Assembly: GCF_900142415.1 (NCBI RefSeq)
Contig: NZ_FRAU01000004.1
Coordinates: 1-64,000, forward strand
Length of the DNA stretch: 64,000 bases
From: Rhodothermus profundi
GTDB taxonomy: Bacteria > Bacteroidota > Rhodothermia > Rhodothermales > Rhodothermaceae
Reading direction: 5' to 3'
The translations under genes and the position numbers were made by a program. Shown piece after piece: positions 31,385 through 42,500 of this stretch; position 1 is the first letter of the stretch; every line of letters starts with the position of its first letter. The notes beneath the pieces were generated by a model. The model did not search any database and was not told the origin of the DNA. It worked only from the letters and a program-made list of their open reading frames with translations.

Positions 31385-31780
31385 TTAACCGGCTTTCTCG
31401 TTATCCTGGGAGCGCCGCGGTGCCAGCGGCAGTTCAGGTAAATCTTTGAAGTCGTAATCTGGCAGATATTCCTCGCGAATATGCTGCACCACCTCGTGAA
31501 TGGCAGCGATGAACTTGCCGAAATCCTCCTTGTACAGGAAGATTTTGTGCTTCTCGTAACGGTGATCGTCGATGCGCTTGCTCTCGGTAATGGTGATAAA
31601 GTAATCGTCACCGGAGCGCGTGGGCTTCACGTCAAAAAAGTAGGTACGCTTACCGGCCGGCACCCGCTTGGAATACACCTCTTCACGATAATGCCGGCCC
31701 TCCTGCGGCGCACGTTGATCCCGCATGGCGTTGTATTCGTCCGAAGCCGCTCCCTGGTAAGTGTGTTGTTCGTAGCTCAT
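31385..31780 (-). CDS. PUR family DNA/RNA-binding protein (DUF3276)
   Basis: A 131-residue protein with a single PUR-alpha-type domain (about 32-105: EEVYSKRVPAGKRTYFFDVKPT and DDYFITITESKR). The family includes Borrelia BpuR, which binds single-stranded nucleic acids, and DUF3276 is widespread in Bacteroidota. The N- and C-terminal tails are polar and probably disordered. The gene is its own transcription unit: a likely promoter is at 31861-31891 and a strong terminator at 31331-31359. The target is unknown. Confidence 0.88.
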   Translation of the reverse strand: MSYEQHTYQGAASDEYNAMRDQRAPQEGRHYREEVYSKRVPAGKRTYFFDVKPTRSGDDYFITITESKRIDDHRYEKHKIFLYKEDFGKFIAAIHEVVQHIREEYLPDYDFKDLPELPLAPRRSQDNEKAG

Positions 31781-31928: not shown

Positions 31929-32774
31929 CTAAAATTTCTTTGCAGATTGTTGATACAAGATGCCTCGAATCAATCGTTCCAGTTGATTGCGCACTTGCAG
32001 TCCTACCTGCAGTACTTCTTCATGCGTAAGCGGACCTGAATGCAGGCCGGCTGCCATGTTGGTGATTGTAGAGATGCCCAGCACCTTCATGCCAAGCTTG
32101 CGGGCCTGAAGCACTTCGGGCACCGTACTCATCCCTACTGCATCGGCTCCCATCCGCCGATACATGCGGATCTCTGCTTTTGTCTCATAGCTCGGACCTA
32201 AGGTCCACAGATAAACACCGCGCCGGATGGGTATGCCCAGGCGTAAGGCGACCGCTTCGGCGATTGCAAGCCAGGATAGATCATAGGGTTGGGCCATGTC
32301 GGGCGCACCACGCATGTGCAAACACGAGTCATCAAGCTGGCCTACCAGCGGATTGCGAAAAGCAGCATTGATATGATCAGCAATCAGCATGAGCATGCCG
32401 GGCCGAAAATGTGGATTTAACCCGCCGGCGGCGTTGGTCACAATGAGAGATCGAGCGCCGAGCGCGTGCACCAGACGAACCGGCAGCGTAACTGTCTGAG
32501 GAGGATAGCCCTCATAGCAATGCAACCGGCCCTGTAGCACGACGACCCGGCATCCTTCCAGTCGCCCAAACACCAGTCGACCCGCATGTCCGGATACGGT
32601 TGGCGTCGGATATCCCGGAATCTCCTGCACCGGCACCTCAATCGCCGCGCTTACCGATTCAGCCAACGCGCCCAGACCGGATCCCAGAATCAGCGCGACC
32701 TCAGGGGTTTCCCGCAGCCGCGGTTTCAGCCAGTCCAGCGCCGCCTGCAGCGATACTTCGGAATGCGCCATCAT
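31929..32774 (-). CDS. punA: purine nucleoside phosphorylase
   Basis: A trimeric-type PNP that splits inosine and guanosine with phosphate. The 281 residues start at ATG 32774, which overlaps the TGA of the upstream phosphatase gene (ATGA); a second ATG follows at once. The frame is open much further upstream but only inside that gene. Motifs: LILGSGLG (phosphate loop), VVVLQGRLHCYEGY, NAAGGLNPHFRPGMLMLI, GPSYETKAEIRMYRRMGADAVGMSTVPE. It is the last gene of the tight TonB-receptor-to-PNP chain. Confidence 0.95.
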   Translation of the reverse strand: MMAHSEVSLQAALDWLKPRLRETPEVALILGSGLGALAESVSAAIEVPVQEIPGYPTPTVSGHAGRLVFGRLEGCRVVVLQGRLHCYEGYPPQTVTLPVRLVHALGARSLIVTNAAGGLNPHFRPGMLMLIADHINAAFRNPLVGQLDDSCLHMRGAPDMAQPYDLSWLAIAEAVALRLGIPIRRGVYLWTLGPSYETKAEIRMYRRMGADAVGMSTVPEVLQARKLGMKVLGISTITNMAAGLHSGPLTHEEVLQVGLQVRNQLERLIRGILYQQSAKKF

Positions 32775-35308
32775 GGGTTTGCGTTTATCTCCAGCAGGAT
32801 AGCTGTCAGGTCGTCTGCCAGTTCCCTGGTCTGGGCGAACTGTTGGAGCTGGCTGTGTAAGGAAGCCAGAGCCTGCTCTGGCGTCTGTTGCTGACGGCTG
32901 CTCTGAATCAGCCATTGTTGCAGGCGTTCGGTGCCCCAACGCTCTGCAGGAGCGCCGGCTATTTCTGGAAGCCCATCTGTGTATAGCAATATCCGGTCTC
33001 CTGGCTCCAGGTGCAGCGTGCAGCCTTCTATGGTTGCCTGAAACCATGAGGTGCTGGCCAGCCCGATCCCCATACCAGGAGGCCGATGGCACTGCACCCG
33101 ATCTTTCAGGGCCTGATAGTGCAACACCGGTGGATGTCCGGCCCGCGCCATGGTAAACGTGCGAGCCCGGGGATCCAGCACCCCATAAATCATCGTCACG
33201 AATACTCCTCGAGGCGCCTGTTCGCGAAAAAGTTGATTCAGGTGGGCAAGAATACGAACTGGATCCCGTACAGAAAGACTGAGCGCCCGCACATGTCCCT
33301 TGATAAGGGTCATAAAGAAAGCGGCCTGAATGCCTTTGCCGCTGACATCTCCCACCACAACAGCCAGGCGTCCGTCCGGCAATGCGAACACGTCGTAGTA
33401 GTCCCCTCCCACTTCATAGGCTGGCTGGCAGAGCGCTGCCATCGTAACGCCCGGCACCTCTGGCAATGCCCGAGGCAGCAACGACGCCTGCGCCTGCCGT
33501 GCGATCTCTAGCTCCCGCTCCAGCCGTTCCTGACGGGCCAGCTCTTTCAAATAGGCAGGAATGTAGCGCGGCAGCTCTTTCTCAGAGCGCTGGCTGCGGA
33601 GTCCAACCAACCCGAGGGCAGCGCCGAATCCCAGCACGCCCCAGACCAGCCAGGCATCTCCCATAAACGGTCCTCCCCATCCCATCCACCCGGACGCACT
33701 CTGCCACAACAGCCAGGCGGTGACCACTCCTACGCCACAGCAGACAGGTTCGTAGCGCCAGAACGCCCACCCCAGCACTACGCCCCACAACGCATGCAGC
33801 CCTAGCTCTAGCGCCATTTGCTCCAACTCGACCGTGCTGACGCTCACCAGCAGGAGCAAAAGCGTCAGCATGCCCACGCTTCGGACAAAATCACGCCAGG
33901 GCAGCCACGACCCAACGGCTAATATTACATAGGTCAAGAGCATCCCCAGCCACACAGAAGACCCCAGCCATACGACCGCCTGCCCTCCGGGCCATGGCAT
34001 GGTCCACGCATTCGCTTCCAGGCGCAACGCAGCCCGAGGCCAGAGCCAGAGCAACACAGCCGTTATCCCCAGCAGCATGCCGCCCAGTGCAATACCGCGC
34101 AGCAGGGCTGCTCCAACCACCATGTTTCGGATTTGCCCTCGCCGCAGCAGCGTCAACGCAGCCAGTTTTTCCGGCCAGCGATCCCGGGCCAACGCATCGG
34201 ACGTGCTGCCTGCCAGAAACACGGTAACCGCACTGAACACGCCCACAATCAAGGCTGAAAACAGCAGAATCATCCCCCGCACCCAGGGGTTGGGGATCTG
34301 CATCAGTCCAGGTAACGCAGCCGCCAGCGTAGCCATGGCAAAAGCCAGTCCTCCCACGACTGCATCGCGCAACGGTCCCTGCGTGTCCAGCAGGCGGCGG
34401 TGCAATCGCCGTAAAAACACGACGAGCAACCAGATGCCAAGCAGCACATAGGTCAGCACCGTCAGCAGCTCCTGAATCTCATGCACGGTAAACCCCGCGT
34501 CGCTTCGCGGCGAGGTGCCTTCGCCAAACGGCACAGCCTCAGGCATCCGTAGTCCCGCCCACTGCACCTCCAGCGACCGCAACTGACCGGTTACCGACAC
34601 AACAACTTCCACGGTCACGGTATCGCCTGTAGGCGCCTGCCCCCGGAATCGTACCAGGGCCTGGCGGGATGGTCCTGCTGTTGCTAGCAATCCAACCGAG
34701 TCAGGCTGCAGCGCCAGCGCAGCCCCTATCGTATGGTGCAGGTGATAGCGGGCCAGCGCGACAGCCGCTGCCGGTCCGGGCTGCGCTGGCATCTCAGACG
34801 AGGATGTATCAGACCAACCTGCCTCCTTGAAAGCCGACGGATCAAACGCCGTGGCTTCAATACCGGCTGCGGAGAGGGCATCCGGGTCTGCTCCTGAAGC
34901 TTCCTCGGGCCCTCGGAATGCCCAGATCGTTCCATCTCCGGCCAGCACGACCTGCCAGGACTGGCCGTCTGCTTCATGAGCTGGACGATATACCACCCAC
35001 CGGTAAGCGGGCAGCCAGGGCATGGCATTGAGCTGCTGCACCAGTGCTGGCCGTCCCCATCGCTCCTGCCAGCGGTGCAACAGATCGGTTGCGCGTCGAA
35101 GCGTTGCCACCGCTTGTGTTGTGTCGGCCCGATATCCTCGGCGTTGCAGAAATTGAATCGCCTGGTGCCGGGCGTCCTCGGCCGACAGTACGCGCCCGAG
35201 GACGCTGTCGGGATGCTGGCGCGGCAGCAGCCACACCCCCAGCACCAGCCCGATCAGCCCGGCCAGCGCCAGCCTCCAATCTGCTTTCTCCAGGCCCTGC
35301 TGCGTCAT
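32771..35308 (-). CDS. membrane-bound PP2C/SpoIIE-type serine phosphatase
   Basis: An 845-residue protein: one N-terminal membrane segment (about 11-29), an extracytoplasmic region to about 280, a cluster of membrane segments (about 285-575), a short coiled linker, and a SpoIIE/RsbU-type PP2C domain (about 610-843). Metal-binding residues are present: GGDYYD (D636), GDVSGKG (D654), YTDG (D778) and DD at 832-833. Such phosphatases usually act on an anti-anti-sigma factor; no STAS or RsbW-like gene is nearby. Both ends overlap neighbours by ATGA, with the AI-2E gene upstream and punA downstream. Confidence 0.9.
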   Translation of the reverse strand: MTQQGLEKADWRLALAGLIGLVLGVWLLPRQHPDSVLGRVLSAEDARHQAIQFLQRRGYRADTTQAVATLRRATDLLHRWQERWGRPALVQQLNAMPWLPAYRWVVYRPAHEADGQSWQVVLAGDGTIWAFRGPEEASGADPDALSAAGIEATAFDPSAFKEAGWSDTSSSEMPAQPGPAAAVALARYHLHHTIGAALALQPDSVGLLATAGPSRQALVRFRGQAPTGDTVTVEVVVSVTGQLRSLEVQWAGLRMPEAVPFGEGTSPRSDAGFTVHEIQELLTVLTYVLLGIWLLVVFLRRLHRRLLDTQGPLRDAVVGGLAFAMATLAAALPGLMQIPNPWVRGMILLFSALIVGVFSAVTVFLAGSTSDALARDRWPEKLAALTLLRRGQIRNMVVGAALLRGIALGGMLLGITAVLLWLWPRAALRLEANAWTMPWPGGQAVVWLGSSVWLGMLLTYVILAVGSWLPWRDFVRSVGMLTLLLLLVSVSTVELEQMALELGLHALWGVVLGWAFWRYEPVCCGVGVVTAWLLWQSASGWMGWGGPFMGDAWLVWGVLGFGAALGLVGLRSQRSEKELPRYIPAYLKELARQERLERELEIARQAQASLLPRALPEVPGVTMAALCQPAYEVGGDYYDVFALPDGRLAVVVGDVSGKGIQAAFFMTLIKGHVRALSLSVRDPVRILAHLNQLFREQAPRGVFVTMIYGVLDPRARTFTMARAGHPPVLHYQALKDRVQCHRPPGMGIGLASTSWFQATIEGCTLHLEPGDRILLYTDGLPEIAGAPAERWGTERLQQWLIQSSRQQQTPEQALASLHSQLQQFAQTRELADDLTAILLEINANP

Positions 35309-36423
35309 CGGGCTGATGCGTTTAGAATGCGATAGTTACGTACGCTCCACCGGATTTGCTCTGCCGTCACGCGCAGGATGGTCAGAAGCGGAATAGCCAG
35401 GAGCATACCAATAATGCCAGCGAGTTGCGCCCCTACCAGCACCGCAAACAGGATAATCAGAGGGTGGGCCCGCGCAGCCCGCGAGAAAATCAGTGGCTGA
35501 AACAACACGTTGTCTGCAATCTGCGTCAGCCCCATGGCCACAAGTATTTCGGGTACCAGAGAAAAATCGCCGGTCTGGGCAATGCCTACCAGGGTGCCGG
35601 CTAAAAAGCCCATGAGGGGTCCAAAATAGGGAATGGTGTTGGCAATGCCCGTGAAAAGCCCAACCGCTACTGCAAACCGCAGTCCGACTAGCGAAAGCAA
35701 CACACTGGCCAGTGTCGCTACAGAAAGACTCTGCAAGAGCAACGCCCGAAAGTAACGGCCTACATTGGCACCCAGCTTATCCAGCACGGCCAGGGTCAAC
35801 TCAAAGTAGCGGTTCGGGACAAGCCTGAGCAGAGAGCGCCGCAGCCGCGTGCCATCCTTAAGCGCAAAGAACGTCACAAAAGGAATGACAAGCACGGCAT
35901 AGAACAGATTGGTAAACAGATCAAGCACAGAACCGATGGTGCTGGCTAATTGGCGCTCGCGAATCAGGGTTTCAAAGCCCTGCTGCAATGCATTCATCAA
36001 CGTGCCCGGCTGTATGGGGAAAAAGCGCGCCAACCACTGCTCAAACTGCGTAATCGCTCCCTGCAGCGAGGCCAGCGAGATGAGCTGCGAAAGCTCAGCA
36101 AGCTGACGAGCCAGAAAAGGTACCAGCGACGTGAACGCCAGACTGAGAAGGCCCGTCACCAGCAGGAGCGTCAACAAAATGGCAGGTACCCGCCCCAGCC
36201 CCACCCGCTGCAATAGGTCCACAATGGGACGCAATAAATAAGCCAGTACCAATCCGACCGTTAGATAGACAATCAGATTGGTAAAGTAACTGACCATCCA
36301 GACCGCTACCCCCAGCAATACCAGCCCCATTACCAGCCGTCCCAGCCAGTGACGCGTCAGATATTGCCAGGCCGAGACAGGAGCTGCCTGCTCAATCGGA
36401 GCATCTGATTCTCCCTGGTGCAT
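35305..36423 (-). CDS. AI-2E family (PerM-like) transporter
   Basis: A 372-residue integral membrane protein of the AI-2E/PerM/YdiK superfamily with about eight membrane segments and the usual hydrophilic central section (about 105-170). The family segments GIANTIPYFGPLMG and PLIFSRAARAHPLIILFAVLVG are clear. Members export varied small molecules or serve as Na+/H+ antiporters, so the substrate is open. It starts 3 bp after recX and overlaps the phosphatase start by 4 bp. Confidence 0.92.
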   Translation of the reverse strand: MHQGESDAPIEQAAPVSAWQYLTRHWLGRLVMGLVLLGVAVWMVSYFTNLIVYLTVGLVLAYLLRPIVDLLQRVGLGRVPAILLTLLLVTGLLSLAFTSLVPFLARQLAELSQLISLASLQGAITQFEQWLARFFPIQPGTLMNALQQGFETLIRERQLASTIGSVLDLFTNLFYAVLVIPFVTFFALKDGTRLRRSLLRLVPNRYFELTLAVLDKLGANVGRYFRALLLQSLSVATLASVLLSLVGLRFAVAVGLFTGIANTIPYFGPLMGFLAGTLVGIAQTGDFSLVPEILVAMGLTQIADNVLFQPLIFSRAARAHPLIILFAVLVGAQLAGIIGMLLAIPLLTILRVTAEQIRWSVRNYRILNASAR

Positions 36424-36426
36424 GGC

Positions 36427-37101
36427 TCAGTTCAGCTCGCGTAGCAGCATATAAGCAATTTCGGACGAAAATCCTCTTCGAAGCAAAAAAGCAACGAGCT
36501 TTTGCTGACGCTTCTTTCGGTCGGGCTCTTGCCGGCGCAGCAGTTGCCATCGGCGTTGCGCCAGCGGACGAGCCACTTCCAGGGGACTGGTCCTGGCCAG
36601 CACGGACGCCAGCGCGGTTTCCACCACGGCGGACGGCACGCCGCGGCGATACAGCTCGTGCCGGAGCCAGCGGGGGCCGTACCCCTTCCCGGCCAGCCGT
36701 TCTTCTACATAAGCCTGGGCATAGCGCAGATCGTCCAGATAGCGCTGCGCTTTCAGTTCGGCTATTACCTGCTCGACGATCTCCTCTGAAAAGCCTGCTC
36801 GTTCCAACCGTCGGCGCACTTCCTGAACGGTTCGCTGCCGACGTTCCAGGTAGCGGAGCGCTATACTCCGGGCCTGCCGCGCCAGCTCGGACTGGTAAAT
36901 CGCCCGCTGCACCGTAACCGGTAGTACCTGCCCTTCGCACACAGCATGATGGTGCAGCACGTCGCGATGCACCCCCATCCAGAACATTCCGTCAAGAAAG
37001 ATAGATATGCGCTCCGGATTGTGCGCTTGCGCTTGCAGGCGGGTCACAACGCCCTCTCGAAAAACCGGGGGGTCTGCTGGTTGTAAGGCATGCGTGCTCA
37101 T
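36427..37101 (-). CDS. recX: RecX family regulator of RecA
   Basis: RecX binds and modulates RecA filaments. The 224 residues have an N-terminal beta region followed by repeated three-helix RecX modules (SIALRYLERRQRTVQEVRRRLER, YLDDLRYAQAYVEER, KLVAFLLRRGFSSEIAYMLL). This is longer than the 166 residues of E. coli RecX but normal for Bacteroidota. recA is not in the window. It is tied by ATGA overlap to the DUF4249 gene upstream, an unexpected partner. Confidence 0.92.
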   Translation of the reverse strand: MSTHALQPADPPVFREGVVTRLQAQAHNPERISIFLDGMFWMGVHRDVLHHHAVCEGQVLPVTVQRAIYQSELARQARSIALRYLERRQRTVQEVRRRLERAGFSEEIVEQVIAELKAQRYLDDLRYAQAYVEERLAGKGYGPRWLRHELYRRGVPSAVVETALASVLARTSPLEVARPLAQRRWQLLRRQEPDRKKRQQKLVAFLLRRGFSSEIAYMLLRELN

Positions 37102-37982
37102 GGGGCCACCGTCAATCGAAGCGAGTCCAGTGCAATTCCTGCTACAATCCCCAGCCCTCCTACTACGTTGGAAACGGGCTCTCTACGTTCCGGAGATTCG
37201 CGGGTGGCTGCAAATCGGGCGTAGGCCTGCCCGCTCCGCAGCAGCGCTACCCGCAACGTGTGCGCTGGCAAAGGCGCCTGCGCCGAATCGACCGGCACAG
37301 CATAGACACCAGTCCAGCGCCGGCGTCCATCGGGCTCCCGAGCACTCTGCTGCTCCAACAGCACCTGTTCAGTTCGCAGAAATAAATCCACCACGACGGA
37401 CGAAAAAGGTACGGCCGGCTGCAGGTGAGGCCGAACCCAGTAGCTGCTGTCTGGCGCGTCAGGCGCGTGCCACCAGAGCGTTACCTCGACGGGATACAGA
37501 TAGCCCTTACGGGCACCGATAGCCAGCGAGTCGTTTAAGACCAGCGAATCAAGTAATACAGCAGGCACCGGTACGTCAGGAAAGGATACCTGCACGCTGT
37601 CGATCTGGATTGGCGGAGGAAGGGCATCGCGCGCATAGATCCGCAGGCCGCGCCACTGGATCTCCAGAACAAAGGACATCTGCGGCGGCAAAATTAAATC
37701 CAGGCGTTCGGGCCGGTAATAGCCAGGCGCTGCAGGATCAGGACGGTACGAGATATACAACGTATCGAGCGCCAGGGTTACCCGGGCATCTGTTACGGCC
37801 TGAGCTCCGTCGGGATCGTAGGGGCCTGTCAACGGACCGGTCTGGCGCAGCCGAATGGCCGGGGGAGGGGCTCCTGTCTCCAGAAAAGCTTCTACGACCA
37901 GCACCGGCTCGGCGCCTGGCACTACCGTATCACAGCCTACTGCCCATCCTATTAGGAGAAGCAACCCGATTCGTCCCTTCAT
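37098..37982 (-). CDS. DUF4249 lipoprotein
   Basis: A 294-residue predicted lipoprotein (lipobox WAVGC, Cys17) of the DUF4249 family: an N-terminal beta domain (VVEAFLETGAPPPAIRLRQT) and a longer beta-rich body. In Bacteroidota this family is nearly always encoded beside a TonB-dependent receptor with an N-terminal carboxypeptidase-like domain, as here. The function is not known; a surface partner of the receptor is a fair inference. It overlaps the receptor gene and recX by 4 bp each. Confidence 0.88.
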   Translation of the reverse strand: MKGRIGLLLLIGWAVGCDTVVPGAEPVLVVEAFLETGAPPPAIRLRQTGPLTGPYDPDGAQAVTDARVTLALDTLYISYRPDPAAPGYYRPERLDLILPPQMSFVLEIQWRGLRIYARDALPPPIQIDSVQVSFPDVPVPAVLLDSLVLNDSLAIGARKGYLYPVEVTLWWHAPDAPDSSYWVRPHLQPAVPFSSVVVDLFLRTEQVLLEQQSAREPDGRRRWTGVYAVPVDSAQAPLPAHTLRVALLRSGQAYARFAATRESPERREPVSNVVGGLGIVAGIALDSLRLTVAP

Positions 37983-40648
37983 AACTCCATCTGAAGTTCC
38001 AGCAGTGGAAGCAGCGGGAGGCCCCGTCGGTCGATAACGCGCACGCCTGTGGGCGTTGGTTCATAGCGTCGGTCAATTACATTGCGGTGGTTAAACAGAT
38101 TGTACACGTACAACTCCACCTCCCAACGCGCGCCCAGCCATCCAAAGCGGTACGCTACCCGCGCATCGACGCGCCAGTAGGGGGGCAACCGCCCATTGTT
38201 AATGTCCGGGCGATAGAGATAGCTGATGGGGTCTGGCTCGAGCGGGTCGCTCAGCTCATAGCGGGCTACCGGTACGGTGGTCGGATAGCCGCTGCGCAGC
38301 TCGCCAGCCAGCATTACTTCCCAGCGAGAGCGCGTGTAGCGTATGAAGGCGTTCAGGGCTTTGGGCACGTCGAAACGGGCGGGTCGATCGCGCTGCTCAC
38401 CCAGCGCTGGCGCGCGGTTCAGCGAGCGCCCGCCGCGATAGCTTACCCAGAGCTGCCAGGGATCACGATCGATCCGTACCAACGCTTCAATGCCAAAGGC
38501 ACGAGCTTGCGCGGGCGTGTACTGCCCGAGCAATACGCCAGTCTCAATCCCGGGGCCTTCCAGGCCATCTTTGGTCTGATACACATCCTGAGGCAAGAGC
38601 GTATAGCGCTGTCGTCGGTAGTAAAGCTGCGTGCGCAGCGTCAGCCAGGGATGCGGTCGGGCTTCCAGTTCGGTTGCTCCCTGCCAGGCAACAGCCGGTC
38701 GCACGCCAGCTCCGGCCGGTATCCAGCGCGTTGAGACCACATCATACACGTAGGAAAACCGATCCCGCAACTGGTGTAGATACTGCACGTAGCGTCCAAT
38801 GCTTATGCGCAGCACCACCTGATCGGGACTCAGACTGTACCGCATCGACAGCCGGGGCTCCCATTCTACCGCTAACGCCTCAAATCGGCTGAGCCGCAAG
38901 CCCACCTGTCCTTCCCAGCGCGTTGTAGGACGCCACACGTGCTGCGCGTACAGCGTTGCCTCCAGGGCCTGCTGCCGACTCCGCTGCACCAGGGTATCGA
39001 CGGCGCGGGGCGCTCGTTGCACCCGCGCGTTCAGGGTGCTGCGAAATGTGCGGCGCACCAGTTGCACGCCCAGTTGGGTCTCATGGGTTAGCGTCGCATA
39101 ATGGTTGGCTTCTACTCGAACGCCTACATCTTCCAGATGCACGGTGTAACGCGAGGCTACAGCTGCACTTCCGGTAGGCTTTACGAAAAAGGCTTCGCGT
39201 GCGCGATAACCGGACAGATAAGCCACTGTGCTTACAAAAAAACGCCGTGTGGGTAGATACTGGTAGCGAAAGCTGATCAGTCGATTCCCCCAGCGTTGAT
39301 CCACCTCAAAAAACAGATCGGCCGGTCGCAGCCACGACGAAAAATCCAGGGAGAAATCAAAGGGCAGGCGCAGGTCCAGGTCGTCTCCTCCCTCATAGTA
39401 GCTGAGCGAAAGCCGGTGGCGCACGCCAGGACGATAGGCCAGCTTGGCGCTGACATCATAGAAATAGTAGCCGGTGCGCAGCGTATCGCGCCGGCCATTT
39501 TCATCCTCAACGGGATGCTCGCGTCCGATGAGTTGATCCAGATAAGAGCGTCGCCCGGCCATCATAAACGAGCTGCCCTGCGTGATCGGGCTTTCGATGA
39601 TAAAGCGGGCGCTGAGCGGACTAAGTCCCAGCAACGTCCGAGGCTGTTCCCGGTTACCATCCCGCATTTCGGCTTCCAGCACAGCACTTAGCCGTCCCCC
39701 ATGGCTGGCCGGGAAAGCCCCCTGGTACAAACGGATGCCCTTGAAGGTCTCGGTCTGGAAGGTCGAGATCAGACTGAACGCATGCCAGGGATGGTAGATC
39801 GGTGCCCCATCCAACAGGTAGAGATTCTGATCCGGCGTCCCTCCCTGAACCAGCAGCCCCCCGCTGACTTCACCCGAACGCTGCACGCCTGGCAGCCACT
39901 GCAACACCTGAAAAAGATCCTGTTCTCCGGGAAATGACGGTAAGCGTTCCAGGTAGGGAACGGGCAACGTGAACGTTCCGGTTGTCGCGGCTTGCTCTTC
40001 CAACGGCAACCGGCTGGCATCAATGCGCACCACCCCGATGCCCAGCGTAACCGGCTGAAGCCACAGCGTCTGCGGCTCTCCTCCAGCCCAGAGTATGGTG
40101 TCGAGAGCGGCATATCCCAGGTAAGAGACGCGCACGCGATAAAACGCGCGGGCAAGGGTTGGCAGCGCAAAATAGCCCGCCGCATTGGTGATAGCGCCTC
40201 GCCGCAGATCCGGCAGATATACATGCGCACCGGGCAGCACCTCCCCTGTCTGGGCATCCAGCACAAAGCCTGAGAGCAACCCTGTTGCCGGTCCCCAGCT
40301 TCGCCGAGATGCCCGTGTTGCCACCAGCACATACTGTCCTGCGCGGATGCGTCGCGCCCGAAGACTTGTGCCCTGCAGCAGGCAGGCCAGCGCTTCCTCT
40401 ATTCGGTCACCCTGATACCGGCAAGAGCTGCGTTGATGCGCAATCAGCCGCTGGGCATAAACCAGCCGGATGCCTGTTTGCGCCTCCAGTTGCCGAAGCG
40501 CTTCAGCCAACGGGACGTTCTGCACGTCAATTGTTACCAGAGCGCTCTGGGCACGGGCGGGCAGTCCAATGCCTACCGTGAGCAGCAACCCCAGCAGGCC
40601 GCACTTCTGCCACCGTGAAAGGCGCTGTTTCCAAGCCCGTAGGGACAT
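37979..40648 (-). CDS. TonB-dependent receptor with STN signalling domain
   Basis: An 889-residue outer membrane receptor. The signal peptide ends near ARAQ (34). An STN (secretin/TonB short N-terminal) domain follows at about 38-110, then a carboxypeptidase-like regulatory domain (about 122-200, LSGFVLDAQTGEVLPGAHVYL), the plug (about 230-330, LLVQGGTPDQNLYLLDGAPIYH) and a 22-strand barrel to the C-terminus (LPLLELQMEL). The STN domain and the sigma/FecR pair just upstream point to FecA-like transmembrane signalling. The ligand cannot be deduced; no siderophore or glycan gene is nearby. Confidence 0.95.
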   Translation of the reverse strand: MSLRAWKQRLSRWQKCGLLGLLLTVGIGLPARAQSALVTIDVQNVPLAEALRQLEAQTGIRLVYAQRLIAHQRSSCRYQGDRIEEALACLLQGTSLRARRIRAGQYVLVATRASRRSWGPATGLLSGFVLDAQTGEVLPGAHVYLPDLRRGAITNAAGYFALPTLARAFYRVRVSYLGYAALDTILWAGGEPQTLWLQPVTLGIGVVRIDASRLPLEEQAATTGTFTLPVPYLERLPSFPGEQDLFQVLQWLPGVQRSGEVSGGLLVQGGTPDQNLYLLDGAPIYHPWHAFSLISTFQTETFKGIRLYQGAFPASHGGRLSAVLEAEMRDGNREQPRTLLGLSPLSARFIIESPITQGSSFMMAGRRSYLDQLIGREHPVEDENGRRDTLRTGYYFYDVSAKLAYRPGVRHRLSLSYYEGGDDLDLRLPFDFSLDFSSWLRPADLFFEVDQRWGNRLISFRYQYLPTRRFFVSTVAYLSGYRAREAFFVKPTGSAAVASRYTVHLEDVGVRVEANHYATLTHETQLGVQLVRRTFRSTLNARVQRAPRAVDTLVQRSRQQALEATLYAQHVWRPTTRWEGQVGLRLSRFEALAVEWEPRLSMRYSLSPDQVVLRISIGRYVQYLHQLRDRFSYVYDVVSTRWIPAGAGVRPAVAWQGATELEARPHPWLTLRTQLYYRRQRYTLLPQDVYQTKDGLEGPGIETGVLLGQYTPAQARAFGIEALVRIDRDPWQLWVSYRGGRSLNRAPALGEQRDRPARFDVPKALNAFIRYTRSRWEVMLAGELRSGYPTTVPVARYELSDPLEPDPISYLYRPDINNGRLPPYWRVDARVAYRFGWLGARWEVELYVYNLFNHRNVIDRRYEPTPTGVRVIDRRGLPLLPLLELQMEL

Positions 40649-40723
40649 GCGCAGAACCTTGACGGCGTCGTGGGGGAACGCGCCTATCTTACGCCCGGAG
40701 CGCCCGAGAGTTGTCTTTGTGCC

Positions 40724-41860
40724 TCACCTGAGCGGAAGCAGACGATATCCTTCTGGCATCTGTTCCAGACGAGCCCCCAGCGTAGCCGCCAACGCCTGCA
40801 GGATCTCTGGCAGCGGTTGATCTTGCGTAAACGTTCCGACAATCGGTTCAGCCGCCAGGGAGGGGTCTACATGGATCGTAACTCCGTAGAGCCCTGAGAG
40901 ATAAGAGGCGATTTCTCGCATCGACATGCCATCGAAGATGTGCAGGCCGGTCCATAGCAATGCTTTGGAGACCTGAACCGTCGTCGGTGGTTCTGGAGCC
41001 TGCCCGGCTATCACGCGACTACGCTGTCCCGGCGTCAGGATCACGGGCGCTTCGGTGCGCCCCCGTCCCCTTAGCGCTACCCGCCCCTCTACCAGCACTA
41101 CTTCCGTTTGCCCGGCTGCACTGCGCACGCCAAACCGCGTGCCCAGCACTGTTACGACAGCCTCTGGCGTCTCCACTACAAAGGGTTGATTCCCAGGTTG
41201 CACCTCTAGAAACGCCTGCCCCTCAAGCTGCAATCGTCGATCAAAGCGTTCAGCATAGCGCAATACTGCCGGCCCTACCAGCCGAACCGAAGAGCCATCG
41301 GCGAGCGTGCGCACCGCAACAGCCCCTTCTGCTACTGTCCACACGACCCGTTTCGCTGTCTGGTGCCACCAGAGCACCCCGATCAGGGCCAACACGACAC
41401 TACTCAACGCCACCCGCACCACCCAGCGATAGGCTAGCCGGCGCTGTGCCAGCCGCGGCCGCCGTTCAGAAGCTGGACGTAATGGCTGCTTGCCTGCGAA
41501 GTGTCCGGCCCAGGCCTCTTCAAAGTCTGCGCAGGCAGATGCAATGTCTTCTACGATGATCTCCAGGCCGGAGAGCAGCTTCAGCGCCTGCTCCAGGGCA
41601 GGCCGCGCTGCTTCAAGCTCTGCCCGTTCTTCTGGCGTCAGCAGCGCCTCCCGTCCACTACGTGCCAGTGCGTAGAGCACCAGTAACCGCCGATCCGGCA
41701 CAGCCTTCTCCAGCCGCTCCCGCAGGTGTACCTGCAACGCCTCCCAGCACCCCAGCGCCCGCGCCAGCGTTGGCTCCTGCGCCAGCAGCGCCTGGAGCGC
41801 TTCTCGCTCCGATGGCGTTAGCGCTTCCCAGAAAGGCAGCGATGCAAAATCGGCGGTCAT
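40724..41860 (-). CDS. FecR family anti-sigma regulator
   Basis: A 378-residue inner-membrane regulator: cytoplasmic anti-sigma N-terminus, one membrane helix (about residues 144-168, VVRVALSSVVLALIGVLWW), then the FecR domain (VWTVAEGAVAVRTLADGSSVRL, FVVETPEAVVTVLGTRFGV) and a C-terminal DUF4974/STN-like domain. I prefer ATG 41860 to the TTG at 41935 because the extra residues are Arg-rich and unconserved in type. It follows the ECF sigma gene and precedes the receptor, completing a cell-surface signalling set. Confidence 0.92.
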   Translation of the reverse strand: MTADFASLPFWEALTPSEREALQALLAQEPTLARALGCWEALQVHLRERLEKAVPDRRLLVLYALARSGREALLTPEERAELEAARPALEQALKLLSGLEIIVEDIASACADFEEAWAGHFAGKQPLRPASERRPRLAQRRLAYRWVVRVALSSVVLALIGVLWWHQTAKRVVWTVAEGAVAVRTLADGSSVRLVGPAVLRYAERFDRRLQLEGQAFLEVQPGNQPFVVETPEAVVTVLGTRFGVRSAAGQTEVVLVEGRVALRGRGRTEAPVILTPGQRSRVIAGQAPEPPTTVQVSKALLWTGLHIFDGMSMREIASYLSGLYGVTIHVDPSLAAEPIVGTFTQDQPLPEILQALAATLGARLEQMPEGYRLLPLR

Positions 41861-41954
41861 GTCCGTTGCCACTAACCGTCTAAAAACCTCGGGTATCCTT
41901 CTATACAGCCGCTCCGCGCGTTTTGCAGGTAACAACGATTAGCCTTTCTTTTTT

Positions 41955-42500
41955 TTAAAACATCCACCACCCGCCCGTCAATAGCAGTCGGCGCATTTTT
42001 TCAAAGGCGCGCTTGACCTGCATCTTGACCGCTGCCTCGGTGGTGCCCAGCAGACGGGCAATTTCTTGATAGCGATAGCCGTAGGCCCGCAGCTCTAAGA
42101 TGCGGCGTGCGTGGGGCGTAAGCACTTGCAGCGCCTGCTCCAGATCCAATCGTGGATCGTCGCCTCCTGCTTCGTGCCCAACGGAGGGAGGCTGCTCTGG
42201 ATCGTATAACTGCTCTCGCCCGTGATACCGCCCTCGGTAGAAGTCTTGCAACTCAAAGAGGGCAGCCTTCATGGCAAACGCCTTGAGTCGGGCATTGTCT
42301 TTTAGATCGGTCAATCCGGTATGCACCCGGAGTAACGTGTTCTGAACCAGATCATCAATCTCCGGAACATCCCCCAGTCGTTTCAGAAAGAAAGCCCGCA
42401 GCACCGGCTCTAGTCGGCGCAACAGCAGGTTCTGGGCCTCGGCTTCGCCCTGCCGGGCCCGGGCTACCAGTTGCGTAGAAATGTCCGGCGCACGGGCCAT
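41955..42500 (-). CDS. ECF RNA polymerase sigma factor
   Basis: A 181-residue ECF sigma factor. Region 2 is at about 15-95 (EIDDLVQNTLLRVHTGL, the -10 binding helix near LKAFAMKAALFELQDFYRGR), a short acidic linker follows, and region 4 is at about 120-175, with the helix-turn-helix YQEIARLLGTTEAAVKMQVKRAFEKM. Beside FecR and the STN receptor it is the output of the envelope signal. After its stop the minus strand reads through a run of eight A residues. Confidence 0.92.
   Translation of the reverse strand: MARAPDISTQLVARARQGEAEAQNLLLRRLEPVLRAFFLKRLGDVPEIDDLVQNTLLRVHTGLTDLKDNARLKAFAMKAALFELQDFYRGRYHGREQLYDPEQPPSVGHEAGGDDPRLDLEQALQVLTPHARRILELRAYGYRYQEIARLLGTTEAAVKMQVKRAFEKMRRLLLTGGWWMF

Follow-up and report, generated by a model that had tools for sequence, protein, structure and literature searches.

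In the FecI-FecR-FecA system of Escherichia coli, FecI directs RNA polymerase to the fecA promoter, and fecIR is transcribed by sigma-70 and is not autoregulated (PMC9249621). Disruption of either member of the TonB transporter-DUF4249 pair BT2172/BT2173 of Bacteroides thetaiotaomicron has similar consequences (PMC11003636), and in Mycobacterium tuberculosis recX overlaps recA yet has an intragenic promoter (PMC3062782). A literature search found no paper linking recX to a TonB operon, and recX, FecR, TonB and DUF4249 are not mentioned in the main text of a paper on the xylan transcriptome of Roseithermus. The locus described here, in which recX follows genes for an ECF sigma factor, a FecR protein, a TonB-dependent receptor and a DUF4249 lipoprotein, lies in a 64,000-nucleotide stretch of the Rhodothermus profundi genome (contig NZ_FRAU01000004.1, positions 1 to 64,000), referred to below as the window.

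All genes of the locus are on the minus strand. The ECF sigma factor (41955..42500) was identified by Pfam Sigma70_r2 and r4_2 and by NCBIfam TIGR02937, over its cut-off; against the model of the Bacteroidetes-type sigma subfamily, TIGR02985, it scored 38.9 bits, below the cut-off of 126.4. It is followed by a FecR-type anti-sigma factor (40724..41935; Pfam FecR 8e-15, FecR_C 4e-10), the start of which is uncertain (TTG at 41935 or ATG at 41860). The TonB-dependent receptor (37979..40648) contains Pfam CarboxypepD_reg, Plug and barrel regions behind an N-terminal STN signalling domain (2.7e-8), and its N-terminus resembles that of FecA at 4e-9, below the cut-off of the NCBIfam model. Its partner, the DUF4249 lipoprotein (37098..37982; Pfam DUF4249 1.7e-9, over cut-off), has a lipobox cysteine, Cys17, that is invariant in the alignment. 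RecX (36427..37101) is complete in its three three-helix domains (PF21982, PF02631 and PF21981, each over cut-off), has 3d5l as its best match among solved RecX structures (2e-19), and is encoded by a single copy in the 3.14-Mb genome. Downstream are an AI-2E family transporter (35305..36423; Pfam AI-2E_transport 3e-47), a membrane SpoIIE-type (PP2C) phosphatase (32771..35308; Pfam SpoIIE 5e-45) and a purine nucleoside phosphorylase, PNP (31929..32774; Pfam PNP_UDP_1 7e-57, NCBIfam PNPH over cut-off). Four-nucleotide ATGA overlaps join receptor to DUF4249, DUF4249 to recX, AI-2E to SpoIIE and SpoIIE to PNP, and recX and AI-2E are 3 bp apart; these junctions, the gene set and the coordinates given in a first-pass annotation were all exact when compared with the open reading frame listing and Pfam. 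The sigma factor gene starts 42 bp downstream of an asparaginase-like ORF on the same strand (43025-42543, 160 aa, matching the N-terminal asparaginase domain only), so the co-directional run begins further upstream; family f34 also has asparaginase-related ORFs close upstream of the sigma factor, and in f3 and f36 such ORFs are in its vicinity. A DUF3276 protein (window 31385-31780, minus strand) lies between PNP and hisD/hisC in many Rhodothermales families. No Rfam family reached its gathering score in the region.

We consider it fairly likely that the locus is a Fec-type module that drives one promoter, before the receptor gene, and that recX, most likely a passenger, is covered by the transcript induced from there. 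At the sequence level this reading is supported by the gene families, their order, the gaps between them, a conserved promoter motif and its single genomic target.

The order Rhodothermales consists of heat- and salt-loving bacteria. recX was searched for in 114 of its genomes, 107 of which had a match, and up to 20 kb flanking each match was mapped with the proteins of the window, leaving 103 informative loci that were not cut by a contig end. DUF4249 was directly upstream of recX in 79 of these 103, from ten families, and the complete sigma-FecR-receptor-DUF4249-recX order recurs in ten families; genera in the set, found by a receptor-alignment search of named genomes, include Rhodothermus, Roseithermus, Salinibacter, Salinivenus and Longimonas. 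Ten loci (families f39 and f41) had a receptor directly upstream of recX that is different or strongly diverged and has no DUF4249, and 14 had no module at all. The arrangement is thus more than chance and is not local, and the loss of order in close relatives, which the first-pass annotation had named as grounds for abandoning its proposal, was not what the comparison returned. Outside Rhodothermus the presence of AI-2E and SpoIIE varies. The adjacency of recX and AI-2E extends beyond the order and was seen without the module in relatives from the class and the phylum; loci of this kind in other classes of the phylum are L014, L015, L017, L018, L020, L022, L024, L025 and L028-L030.

Conserved order alone is no proof of coupling, since the background retention of neighbours is itself about 75%. 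As a control, a further 24 pairs of neighbours in the window were located in six genomes from six other families, with best matches tabulated by hand under a 7-kb limit, and 91 of 121 adjacencies (75%) were kept; some of these pairs have a functional link, and some pass over one gene in between. DUF4249-recX retention is therefore not exceptional by itself. The module and recX also occur apart. Where recX has no module, a receptor orthologue is often present elsewhere in the genome, and the intact four-gene module was found among other neighbours with no recX behind it in G166, G197, G198, G160, G161, G158 and G179; the receptor/DUF4249 pair remains together when detached. In three of these genomes (G158, G160 and G161, all of f34) no RecX was found by protein or profile search and the receptor module is intact; G161 is a single contig, and recX appears to have been lost from the three. 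In evolution the four-gene module behaves as the unit, and recX is an attachment that is frequent but dispensable. These observations (the kept control adjacencies, the intact modules away from recX, including those in genomes with no detectable recX, and the 14 module-free recX loci) would suit a neutral neighbourhood, in which the module and recX are independent and adjacent through kept gene order, and recX is served by a promoter of its own, weak or intragenic, that makes read-through irrelevant. We regard this as unlikely, on evidence from the gaps and the DUF4249/recX junction.

Another reading is a functional coupling across the order, in which RecX would be a true effector and output of the system: an extracellular ligand, as an envelope signal, would lower or tune RecA activity and with it recombination. 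In its favour, the only recX gene has over the long term kept a tight place downstream of the receptor promoter in most Rhodothermales, and in f39 and f41 it stays behind the different or diverged receptor, where DUF4249 is missing. Against these stand its detachment in several lineages, the recX-free genomes that keep the module, and a DUF4249-recX retention not above background, and we judge such a coupling quite improbable.

Gap statistics were based on predicted start codons, and mispredicted starts account for a few outlying values. The median gap was 3 bp between receptor and DUF4249 and 8 bp between DUF4249 and recX (30 bp or less in 53 of 79), which makes receptor, DUF4249 and recX a tight unit order-wide. 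The median was 110 bp between fecR and the receptor, with no overlap in any locus, and 144 bp between recX and AI-2E, where wide spacing is usual outside Rhodothermus; the overlap-linked continuation to PNP is mainly a feature of that genus.

In the window the fecR-receptor gap is 75 bp and contains a conserved candidate ECF-type promoter motif, ACAACT-N14-GCGTAAGA (40687..40714, minus strand), 64 bp upstream of the receptor start codon. Corresponding elements in this gap are ACAACTC with GCGTAAGA in f1, GGAACGC with GTCTATAA in f4, GGAAC with GTGTAA in f34 and TGAACGA with GAGTAGAA in f6, and their common geometry is AAC-N15-GNNTA. This pattern was present upstream of the receptor in 40 of 79 loci compared with 1.1 expected from dinucleotide shuffles, an enrichment that is descriptive because the motif was derived from the same loci as were scored; the independent checks are a spacing control and genome-wide scans. 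Among 13 spacings only 15 was enriched (the same 40 of 79), every other giving five loci or fewer, and the spacing-15 motif occurred in 13 of 31 genera. It was near chance before sigma, fecR, DUF4249, recX, PNP and DUF3276, and was found before AI-2E in 2 of 47 loci (0.3 expected). About half of the loci lack it (families f41, f42 and f39 and parts of f4 and f6), and other promoters must serve there. Another conserved pair, TGTGAC-N15-GGCGGCT, was seen upstream of sigma in L069 and L090 (f39) and in L062, L067, L079, L094 and L097 (f41), and suggests a different promoter arrangement in the families that have a receptor without DUF4249. TATCTTC-like -10 elements, which may represent the order's housekeeping promoter, were seen 12 bp upstream of the receptor start codon, where they look leaderless, in L041, L135 and L141 (f4) and L056 (f37), and about 58 bp upstream of the sigma start in f42 loci.

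The exact form ACAACT-N14-GCGTAAGA occurs once per genome, always upstream of the receptor, in all seven Rhodothermus genomes, and allowing one mismatch added a single site in total across the seven. The exact f4 motif was present in one copy in each of 11 genomes, and one-mismatch matches were about as numerous as in the reversed control; it was not found in G236, where the recX locus has no module and the genome no receptor orthologue, or in G231, where the receptor gap has no motif. In one genus of f34 the exact motif was single-copy in nine of ten genomes, one of which has an additional one-mismatch site, and in four genomes of f6 exact matches lay only upstream of the receptor. The receptor-promoter motif thus apparently has one genomic target, f1-type Rhodothermus, f4 and f34 agreeing on this and f6 in part, a pattern that by analogy would be that of FecI (PMC9249621). 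We infer that the sigma factor encoded beside the motif uses it; each Rhodothermus genome has three to five FecR-domain genes, so another sigma factor might do so instead.

The DUF4249/recX junction showed neither a promoter consensus nor an ECF motif, there was no sign of constraint at its synonymous sites, and no terminator was evident between the two genes. A sigma-70-like scan gave two sites compared with 3.8 in shuffles, none directly before recX, and the housekeeping promoter consensus upstream of recX was at chance. Apparent synonymous-site constraint in the first 28 codons of the receptor was set aside as most likely an artefact: where the signal peptide diverges in the alignment, the count covers close relatives only. 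A junction without such signals favours co-transcription; an internal recX promoter would be compatible with the overlap, because such a promoter may hide in overlapping genes, as the M. tuberculosis precedent shows (PMC3062782). That precedent lends something to the neutral neighbourhood, against which count the near-zero gaps across ten families, the lack of a promoter signal upstream of recX and the absence of synonymous constraint at the junction. The near-zero gaps, the ECF-type motif before the receptor and not before recX, and the conserved order are best read as a single transcript from receptor to recX, and recX is probably within the receptor transcript. The first-pass annotation had proposed a single transcript from the receptor on; from receptor to recX this is plausible from the gaps and the position of the motif, and the stretch onward to PNP would follow from the overlaps in Rhodothermus.

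The same annotation had tied an outer-membrane signal, perhaps nucleoside or DNA uptake, to recombination and purine salvage, and this finds no support in the background retention of 75% or in the modules detached from recX. The downstream position of PNP and recX, linked by overlaps in Rhodothermus, could be taken to mean that nucleosides or DNA are what the receptor detects and that the operon couples their uptake to both processes. PNP, however, keeps its place next to recX in loci that have no module, and no PNP accompanies the modules that are detached; it follows recX and not the receptor module, so there is no indication that the ligand is a nucleoside or DNA. The predicted receptor structure (pLDDT 75; STN, carboxypeptidase-regulatory-like, plug and barrel regions) has siderophore and cobalamin receptors as its PDB neighbours, at fold level only and with a TM of about 0.5 (FoxA and FpvA nearest, with BtuB and FecA also among them), and in the model it is nearest, at that level, to signalling siderophore receptors. 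Nucleoside or DNA sensing is accordingly very improbable. A ligand assignment from the receptor model was set aside, its neighbours being at fold level only. The DUF4249 model (pLDDT 85) had no useful solved neighbour.

In the passenger reading, a ligand would bind the receptor and DUF4249, whose joint function is suggested by analogy with BT2172/BT2173 (PMC11003636). The ligand-bound receptor would signal through its STN domain to FecR, freeing the ECF sigma factor, whose target would be essentially a single promoter, within the 75 bp between fecR and the receptor gene, so that receptor and lipoprotein are amplified by positive feedback. Given the DUF4249/recX overlap and no evident promoter or terminator between the two, transcription once induced would not stop before recX, and in Rhodothermus it would extend over AI-2E, SpoIIE and PNP as well. 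The presence of the ligand would then raise RecX, most likely a mere passenger of the operon, and RecA might be affected in turn.

The observation is real and stronger than first described, being order-wide and accompanied by a candidate dedicated promoter. For a signalling system that is uncharacterised and maintained throughout a bacterial order, it provides a concrete candidate promoter with its set of targets, and the sigma factor, with apparently one target, would be a clear case in nature of a sigma factor and a promoter dedicated to each other. If read-through is real, a RecA modulator would be placed under an outer-membrane sensor rather than under DNA damage. As in the mycobacterial recA-recX operon, recX overlaps the upstream gene and co-transcription is possible; in mycobacteria that gene is recA under DNA-damage control, and recX of M. 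tuberculosis has an additional, intragenic promoter, whereas here the upstream gene is the lipoprotein gene of the module. As with BT2172/BT2173, the receptor adjoins a DUF4249 lipoprotein and the pair moves together, a likeness by family and adjacency; PMC11003636 describes no recX neighbour. The E. coli Fec system shares the ECF sigma factor and FecR upstream of an STN-type receptor, a candidate target promoter in the fecR-receptor gap with apparently one target (PMC9249621), and the lack of a motif before sigma, as expected where there is no autoregulation. It differs in that the receptor is followed by an ABC importer there and by DUF4249 and recX here, and the present sigma factor is not close to FecI in NCBIfam. 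The Rhodothermales module is a variant of the Fec-type module, in which recX would be at most a candidate regulated effector.
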